Below, piece after piece: positions 16,699 through 18,675 of a stretch of 64,000 nt of DNA. A program made the position numbers and the translations under genes. Each line of letters begins with the position of its first letter. Position 1 is the first letter of the stretch. The notes under the pieces were generated by a model. It did not search any database, was not told where the DNA came from, and worked only from the letters and a program-made list of their open reading frames with translations. Location of the stretch: contig NZ_KZ826481.1 of NCBI RefSeq assembly GCF_003205515.1, forward strand, positions 290,660 to 354,659, read 5' to 3'. Origin of the DNA: Litorivita pollutaquae (GTDB lineage Bacteria; Pseudomonadota; Alphaproteobacteria; Rhodobacterales; Rhodobacteraceae).

Positions 16699-16725
16699 TT
16701 AAGCGCATGTTAATACGGTGTTAAC
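16699..16725. promoter_or_regulatory. Overlapping CtrA-type sites upstream of the glycosyltransferase
   Basis: Three half-sites occur in series: TTAA 16699-16702, TTAA 16710-16713 and TTAAC 16721-16725, each separated by exactly seven bases. This makes two overlapping TTAA-N7-TTAA(C) boxes, the full consensus of the cell-cycle regulator CtrA. They lie 46-72 bases before the start codon, where a response regulator could act on the promoter. Confidence 0.7.
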
Positions 16726-16770
16726 TCTCTATGTAGAAACTCCTTGCTGACCATAAGTGAGGCGTTTCGA

Positions 16771-18675
16771 ATGTATTTCCCAGACCTGCGAGAGTTTGAC
16801 GGCACATCAAACGCCGACCTCAAACCCGCATCTCTTGGCTCGGAGTTGGTGCGCACCGGTGCCATCACTTCCGAACAATTGATGGCAGCGCTTTCGGTGC
16901 AGGCACAATGCGACGCAACACTTGACAAAATCCTTACGACCGAGGGCATCATGCGCCCCGCCGACATGCGGTCGGCATTGGCGCGGTACCACGATACCTT
17001 TGTTGTCGATCTCGAAGAGACGCCGCCGGCGGGCACGCTGATCCATATGCTTGATCCTCAATTTTGCATCAAACATTGTATCGTTGCATGGCAGAAGGTG
17101 GATGATGTGACGCATATCGCCACCTCCCGCCCGCATCTGTTCGAGCAAATCGTCGCCGCCCTGCCCGACGAATTGCTACCGGCGCGGATGGTGATTGCCA
17201 GCCAAGAGCAAATTCAAAACACCGTGGCGCGGTTGAACCGGCCTGCGCTGGTTCTGGCGGCGCAAACCCGTGTCCCCGAGGCCGAAAGCTGCCGCACATG
17301 GGGCAAGAACCGCCGCCTGCGCATTGTGCTTTGCCTCGCGGCTCTGACCGCAGTGGCAGTCCTGACCTTTCGCTATCCTACCATTGTTTTCATGGCATTG
17401 GTCGGTTGGGCAATCTTTACCTTAATGGTGTCCTCGGTGATGAAAACCGCCGCCTTTGTCGCGCGGGTCTCGAAGCCGCCAGAGGATTTCCTGACACCCG
17501 ATCTGCCATCGGGAGCACGGCTGCCAAAAGTCTCGGTGTTGGTGCCGCTCTTTAAAGAAAAAGAAATCGCCTCCCATCTCGTTCAACGACTTAAAAAACT
17601 GAATTATCCCAAATCGTTGCTTGATGTTGTGTTGGTTCTCGAAGAGGTCGACACGCTCACTCAGGACACGGTCGCCCGGACATCTTTGCCGCCTTGGCTT
17701 CGGGTGGTGGTCGTGCCCAAAGGAGAGCCGCAAACCAAGCCGCGGGCAATGAACTACGCGTTGGATTTCTGCGATGGGGAAATCATCGGTATCTTTGATG
17801 CCGAAGATGCGCCCGATGCCGATCAAATCACGCGCGTTGCACATCATTTCCTCAACGCGCCACCTGACTTGGTCTGTTTGCAGGGGATCCTCGACTATTA
17901 CAATCCGCGTCAAAACTGGATCGCGCGCTGCTTTACCATCGAATATGCGGCATGGTTCCGGCTGATCCTGCCCGGCATGGCACAGCTTGGCTTTGGCATT
18001 CCGTTGGGGGGCACAACGCTCTATTTTCGCCGCGATGCTTTGGAAGAACTGGGCGGGTGGGATGCGCATAATGTCACCGAAGACGCCGACCTCGGCTTCC
18101 GGTTGGCGCGTCATGGCTACCGCACCGATGTGATCCAAACCGTCACCGGCGAAGAGGCGAACTGCCGGGCGCTGCCGTGGGTGCGCCAACGTTCGAGATG
18201 GCTGAAAGGTTATATGACCACTTACCTGGTCCATATGCGTAAGCCATTGAAATTGTTTAATCAACTTGGCGCATGGCGGTTCATCGGCTTTCAGGCTCAT
18301 TTCGTAACGGCGATGTCGCAATTCTTCCTCGCGCCGCTTCTCTGGTCCTTCTGGCTGGTAATTCTGGGGCTACCGCACCCTCTGGACGGGATTGTGCCGC
18401 ATGAGATGCTTTTGACGATGGGATCGCTGTTTTTGACCGTCGAGATGATCAATGTGGTCGCCAATCTCACCGCCATTGCCAATCCCGGGCACCGACATCT
18501 GCTTCCTTGGGTTGCGACCATGCATGTCTATTATCCGCTGGGGGTTTTCGCGGCGTACAAGGCGCTTTACGAATTGATCGTCATCCCATTTTATTGGGAC
18601 AAAACCCCACACGGGTTGTCGATTGACCACCCCAAGGGCACCGATCAAACCCCCAAGGCACGGCCGCGCGTATAA
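16771..18675 (+). CDS. Membrane glycosyltransferase family 2 with N-terminal MshEN-like domain
   Basis: This 634-residue inner-membrane protein probably makes an exopolysaccharide. Residues 21-44 and 51-73 carry two copies of the MshEN (type II secretion GspE N-domain) pattern with LGxxLxxxGxIxxxxLxxAL spacing; this domain binds c-di-GMP in MshE and in the phage N4 receptor synthase NfrB. Hydrophobic helices follow at about 183-230. The GT2 catalytic part (about 252-490) has KVSVLVPLFKE, the Asp-containing FDAEDAPDAD, the acceptor-site NVTEDADLG and the processive-synthase motif QRSRW (473-477). More helices fill 510-610. The ATG at 16771 is preferred over 16744 because TGAGG sits eight bases before it. 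Three CtrA-type sites precede it and a terminator follows, so it is monocistronic. The first MshEN motif has Ser where Arg is usual, so ligand binding is uncertain. Confidence 0.85.
   Translation: MYFPDLREFDGTSNADLKPASLGSELVRTGAITSEQLMAALSVQAQCDATLDKILTTEGIMRPADMRSALARYHDTFVVDLEETPPAGTLIHMLDPQFCIKHCIVAWQKVDDVTHIATSRPHLFEQIVAALPDELLPARMVIASQEQIQNTVARLNRPALVLAAQTRVPEAESCRTWGKNRRLRIVLCLAALTAVAVLTFRYPTIVFMALVGWAIFTLMVSSVMKTAAFVARVSKPPEDFLTPDLPSGARLPKVSVLVPLFKEKEIASHLVQRLKKLNYPKSLLDVVLVLEEVDTLTQDTVARTSLPPWLRVVVVPKGEPQTKPRAMNYALDFCDGEIIGIFDAEDAPDADQITRVAHHFLNAPPDLVCLQGILDYYNPRQNWIARCFTIEYAAWFRLILPGMAQLGFGIPLGGTTLYFRRDALEELGGWDAHNVTEDADLGFRLARHGYRTDVIQTVTGEEANCRALPWVRQRSRWLKGYMTTYLVHMRKPLKLFNQLGAWRFIGFQAHFVTAMSQFFLAPLLWSFWLVILGLPHPLDGIVPHEMLLTMGSLFLTVEMINVVANLTAIANPGHRHLLPWVATMHVYYPLGVFAAYKALYELIVIPFYWDKTPHGLSIDHPKGTDQTPKARPRV

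Follow-up and report, generated by a model that had tools for sequence, protein, structure and literature searches.

The 64,000 nucleotides of Litorivita pollutaquae DNA analysed here (the window) include a stand-alone gene whose product, judging from its sequence, is a processive GT2 polysaccharide synthase of the inner membrane with an MshEN domain at its N-terminus. Our main reading, to which we assign a probability of about 0.66, is that this protein is a core exopolysaccharide synthase driven by CtrA, that it was ancestrally gated by c-di-GMP, and that the gate has probably been lost here. CtrA most likely controls transcription of the gene by way of at least one full CtrA box in its promoter, and polymer production would thereby follow the CtrA-dependent state of the cell; we infer the occupancy of the boxes by CtrA and the sign of its effect. 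The enzyme would extrude a polysaccharide, with both the product and its secretion route being putative. In relatives with intact motifs, c-di-GMP bound to MshEN may gate the enzyme allosterically, by analogy with NfrB. In the Roseovarius-type clade, to which the protein belongs, the second half-site would have been lost through replacement of Arg38 by Thr, Gly40 by Asp and Gln61 by Tyr, leaving CtrA as the main control and MshEN as a structural or docking part.

The open reading frame encodes 634 amino acids and has an in-frame alternative TTG start at position 16744; residue numbers are counted from the ATG at 16771. Table 1 collects the features of the gene and its promoter. A first-pass annotation of this DNA had placed an MshEN domain ahead of transmembrane and GT2 domains, and profile searches agreed with it. 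Pfam model PF05157 matched residues 77-159, the MshEN_C half of the domain, with 32.4 bits (gathering cut-off, 23.1), and PF13632 and PF13641 matched from residue 252 with E values of 5e-24 and 2e-22. No other MshEN match occurs anywhere in the genome. A phmmer alignment paired residues 9-137 of VcMshE with residues 21-148 of the synthase. The AlphaFold2 model of the full-length protein had a pLDDT of 92.5, and the N-terminal domain modelled alone had a pLDDT of 90.9, indicating with high confidence that the fold is retained. Since a fold search with the whole chain returned only glycosyltransferase folds (hyaluronan, cellulose and chitin synthases), the N-terminal domain was searched alone. 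Its best PDB match was 5HTL, the structure of MshE with c-di-GMP (TM 0.87 on the target, rmsd 2.1 Å), and this fold, together with the PF05157 score, identifies it as an MshEN domain. The DxD, TED and QxxRW motifs and the membrane helices of the model identify the rest of the chain as a processive GT2 synthase. Because the helices at residues 175-234 lie between MshEN and GT2 in the model, both domains are expected on the cytosolic side.

Table 1. Features of the synthase gene and its promoter, with positions numbered from the first letter of the window.
Feature	Position	Strand	Remarks
CtrA box TTAAGATTCGGTTAA	16557..16571	+	Distal; sequence match
CtrA box TTAAGCGCATGTTAA	16699..16713	+	3′ half shared with the next box; sequence match
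CtrA box TTAATACGGTGTTAA(C)	16710..16724	+	Lies 46 bp ahead of the ATG; location kept across the family, mostly at -60 to -150
MshEN-TM-GT2 synthase gene	16771..18675	+	634 aa; alternative TTG start at 16744
MshEN_N motif I, SLGSELVRTGAITSEQLMAALSVQ	16831..16902	+	aa 21-44; sole change is the leading Arg (R9) to Ser
MshEN_N motif II, TLDKILTTEGIMRPADMRSALARY	16918..16989	+	aa 50-73; R38T, G40D, L54M, Q61Y
MshEN_C subdomain (PF05157)	16999..17247	+	aa 77-159
Two long membrane helices, MshEN/GT2 linker	17293..17472	+	aa 175-234; AlphaFold2 model
GT2 catalytic domain	17524..18363	+	aa 252-531
DAED (DxD) metal/UDP motif	17797..17808	+	aa 343-346; 183/184 in the family
TED catalytic motif	18076..18084	+	aa 436-438; 182/184 in the family
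QRSRW (QxxRW) processive-GT motif	18187..18201	+	aa 473-477; 182/184 in the family
C-terminal membrane helices	18400..18582	+	aa 544-604; AlphaFold2 model

Fusions of MshEN to glycosyltransferases are already known, having been noted by Wang et al. (PMC5013675), and the characterised case is NfrB, the c-di-GMP-activated GT2 enzyme of the phage N4 receptor system of E. coli, in which the enzyme is gated by c-di-GMP on MshEN (PMC8669469). NfrB and the present synthase both combine MshEN and a processive GT2 domain with DxD, TED and QxxRW motifs in one inner-membrane protein. However, the domain order is opposite, as the first-pass annotation had stated, with MshEN located at the C-terminus of NfrB (PMC8669469). 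Furthermore, there is no nfrA/YbcH neighbour here, where carA and GntR genes flank the synthase, and the NCBIfam NfrB model scored 29.5-30.2 bits against a cut-off of 1170. BcsA, the PilZ-gated cellulose synthase, and hyaluronan synthase share the GT2 catalytic fold and membrane-coupled synthesis, and BcsA is gated by c-di-GMP as well, but the BcsA/CelA model TIGR03030 gave 56 bits (cut-off, 699) and Pfam found no PilZ domain in the synthase. The best-scoring NCBIfam model for the glycosyltransferase part was that of the PgaC/IcaA poly-GlcNAc synthases (TIGR03937), although its 59.2 bits are far from the cut-off of 422.3 and there is no pga-type operon at this locus. The MshEN domains of VcMshE and Thermus PilF have the same fold and the same two 24-residue motifs with a five-residue spacer; they differ from this one in being fused to an ATPase instead of a GT2 domain and in having the motif II ligand residues that the Roseovarius-type clade has lost.

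The gene order yqeY-carA-synthase-GntR-HAD-ubiH is conserved, with carA present at 77 of the 80 named loci and the GntR gene at 70. This supports the orthology of the synthases and indicates a stand-alone gene, not part of an exopolysaccharide operon. No dedicated gene for an outer-membrane partner adjoins the synthase; therefore, secretion of the polymer is assumed. The R. capsulatus gene rcc01932 was dropped as a candidate orthologue for lack of support, its only description being that of a gene for capsule chain initiation.

The c-di-GMP site of MshEN consists of two 24-residue motifs separated by a five-residue spacer (PMC5013675). The ligand half of the domain in the synthase (53 residues, aa 21-73) reads SLGSELVRTGAITSEQLMAALSVQ-AQCDA-TLDKILTTEGIMRPADMRSALARY, and the canonical spacing that the first-pass annotation had recognised in two consecutive repeats holds exactly. 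Motif I retains L10, G11, G18, L25, L29 and Q32, and motif II retains L39, G47 and L58. Among the paired ligand residues, Gly11 and Gln32 are kept, Gly40 is replaced by Asp and Gln61 by Tyr. The annotation had also pointed to the Ser in place of the first Arg as a change that might weaken or abolish binding. The Ser is there, but the changes R38T, G40D and Q61Y matter more. Changes of Arg9, Asp12 or Gln32 in MshE shift the affinity by about fivefold at most (PMC5013675), and for this reason the substitution of Arg9 appears to be minor and the damage to motif II the serious one. Substitutions of the conserved hydrophobic residues of MshE cost more than tenfold in affinity, G11L and G40I abolished the stabilisation by c-di-GMP, and XpsE, which has many motif changes of this kind, has lost c-di-GMP binding (PMC5013675). 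No measurement of G40D was found in the literature examined. With the changes in motif II, the second guanine site is predicted to be lost. The erosion of MshEN_N seems to be partial, since motif I is nearly intact and the region scored 41.9 bits on a profile built from intact orthologues.

These observations bear on whether the synthase still binds c-di-GMP, either weakly or through intermolecular pairs of motif I, in which case it would be activated as NfrB is and both controls would act. The residues retained in both motifs are compatible with this, as are the single changes in MshE and NfrB that often only weaken binding (PMC5013675, PMC8669469) and the nine GGDEF domains encoded in the genome. 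Against it, three ligand residues are changed in combination, G40I in MshE gave no thermal shift, XpsE lost binding with several such changes, Gly40 is missing throughout the clade, and NF053729, the NCBIfam model of the cyclic di-GMP-binding motif, scored 35.0 bits (E = 9e-9), below its cut-off of 38. We regard residual binding as rather improbable. Because Gly40, Arg38 and Gln61 are changed and the loss of Gly40 is clade-wide, our preferred reading is that binding of c-di-GMP in the manner of MshE has probably been lost in this protein and its lineage. The proposal of the first-pass annotation that cell-cycle and second-messenger control meet in this synthase is accordingly weakened on the c-di-GMP side by the damage to motif II, and it stands on the CtrA side, where the boxes are conserved.

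To follow the sensor domain across the family (GTDB Rhodobacteraceae-type), 199 genomes were surveyed, each from a different genus. A synthase match was found in 182 of them, which suggests a core gene of the family. In the alignment of 184 family sequences, Gly11, Gly40 and Gln61 are all retained in 87, Gly40 and Gln61 are both lost in 79, and 18 show an intermediate state; the ligand residues are therefore intact in many orthologues, which, with the clear MshEN hits, upholds the first-pass annotation on the presence of the domain. Gly40 is absent from all 16 members of the Roseovarius-type clade, replaced mostly by Asp, and motif II ends in Tyr, Phe, Arg or Ala in the same 16, never in Gln. 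Mapped on the tree of the glycosyltransferase domain, the two-glycine state changed 20 times, at least 11 of these changes being forced by supported branches. Both glycines are present in most relatives from other alphaproteobacterial families, which are about 34% identical, so the intact motif state is probably ancestral. Outside the class, full-length relatives (E about 1e-150) were observed in 19 genomes (f178/g494 and f197), 18 of them from one genus, and may reflect deep ancestry or transfer.

The groups called intact and lost are partly defined by the residues under discussion, and the comparison of their conservation was repeated without them. For pairs with glycosyltransferase identities of 60-75%, MshEN_N identity outside the key residues was 18-26% in lost pairs versus 28-40% in intact pairs, and MshEN_C identity differed little (26-33% versus 28-37%). 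MshEN_N was undetectable in 27 of the 184 sequences and MshEN_C in four. The DAED, TED and QRSRW motifs are intact in 182-183 of the sequences. Intact catalytic motifs beside an eroded MshEN_N point to strong constraint on the enzyme and repeated release of the ligand site. In one genome (G009), a 414-residue frame with only the glycosyltransferase part was considered as a domain-loss form and rejected, the MshEN part lying upstream in other frames. This orthologue (L252:1280-3310) spans three frames, is 68% identical in its glycosyltransferase part, keeps the carA and GntR flanks and two CtrA boxes, and is probably a frameshifted pseudogene or a mis-assembly.

The survival of the fold raises the alternative that MshEN serves as a docking module, either at present or, in part, from the outset, with MshEN_C and an eroded MshEN_N binding an activating or localising partner. 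The N-terminal domain of Xanthomonas PilB, which binds PilZ (PDB 7LKO), offers a parallel, and the fold search with the N-terminal domain model, itself of high confidence, also returned chains of PilB-PilZ complexes. In addition, MshEN_C is detectable in 180 of 184 sequences versus 157 for MshEN_N. However, no candidate partner was identified, and MshEN_C is also fast-evolving, with an average identity of 23% within the Roseovarius-type clade. We consider the docking module unlikely, if worth keeping in mind. Returning to the lost gate, a wider formulation is that this CtrA-controlled core surface-polysaccharide synthase of the family discarded its c-di-GMP switch many times independently, so that control passed from the second messenger to CtrA, and kept the sensor as a scaffold; we put it forward tentatively, at somewhat less than even odds.

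The first-pass annotation had connected the gene with CtrA sites. Three perfect TTAA-N7-TTAA sites occur in the window, where 0.15 are expected, and all of them lie upstream of the synthase (Table 1). A perfect box is present upstream of 159 of 183 family orthologues (one record with only 71 nt was left out), and spacings of 3-6 and 8-12 gave counts of 1-7. The remaining 24 promoters have a box with one mismatch (23) or two mismatches (1). The bases of the N7 spacer differ between genera, and the conservation of the box is therefore not mere sequence relatedness. The box has the published form found in Rhodobacterales CtrA regulon promoters, such as those of flagellar, gene-transfer-agent and c-di-GMP genes (PMC7232146). 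The genome has a full CtrA gene (432 bits; cut-off, 350), and at the sequence level the conserved upstream box assigns the synthase to the CtrA regulon. Box retention is alike in orthologues with intact motifs (49/58) and with neither glycine (30/36). Overlapping boxes that share one TTAA half, with half-sites repeating every 11 bp, were seen at 16699-16724 and at seven other loci. The open literature searched, with some regulon papers outside its scope, named no MshEN-GT2 synthase as a CtrA target and yielded neither ChIP results for CtrA nor expression data on this gene.

Could the boxes be AT-rich sites that arose by chance, or serve carA or a different regulator? In favour of this, the box is not commoner across the whole genome than a reversed control (29 versus 40 sites). 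The conservation is nonetheless specific to one spacing, and outside the synthase promoters only two sites occur in 1.01 Mb of the 80 named loci. Moreover, 13 genomes have no synthase in a stretch of at least 1.1 kb after carA, and none of these carries the box there, which indicates that the box goes with the synthase rather than with carA. In two genomes the gene and its promoter are both missing between carA and GntR. Chance or foreign boxes are thus highly improbable, and control by CtrA is the reading that we retain. No box was found within 300 bp of the gene in 15 relatives from other families, so the CtrA wiring appears to be specific to this family.

Ten of the 13 genomes that truly lack the synthase are also devoid of CtrA, and in these ten GGDEF domains are absent or limited to one very weak match. 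This is suggestive, and only suggestive, of a functional tie of the synthase to both systems, the CarA tree being poorly resolved, with only two independent pairs on supported branches; lineage effects or genome reduction could also account for the co-loss. The CtrA and c-di-GMP systems appear to have been lost jointly in several lineages. CtrA, GGDEF domains and a synthase orthologue were all not found in 11 genomes, two of which are 4.9-5.6 Mb in size. Apparent absence of the synthase in five other genomes was rejected: in four, a synthase or a fragment adjoins carA, and in G167 the contig stops 130 nt after carA with the CtrA box present. Apparent absence of CtrA in four genomes was distrusted because the candidates were only partly scored.

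The presence of one CtrA box, conserved family-wide, before one stand-alone synthase predicts that roseobacters and relatives of Rhodobacter and Paracoccus commonly make a surface polysaccharide, timed by CtrA, that has apparently gone undescribed. Since motility and gene-transfer-agent functions are likewise under CtrA control in these bacteria, the polymer could affect attachment to surfaces and the adsorption of phages and gene transfer agents. The intact and broken MshEN domains on matched synthases would form a natural series with which to ask whether such synthases require a c-di-GMP gate and what takes its place.
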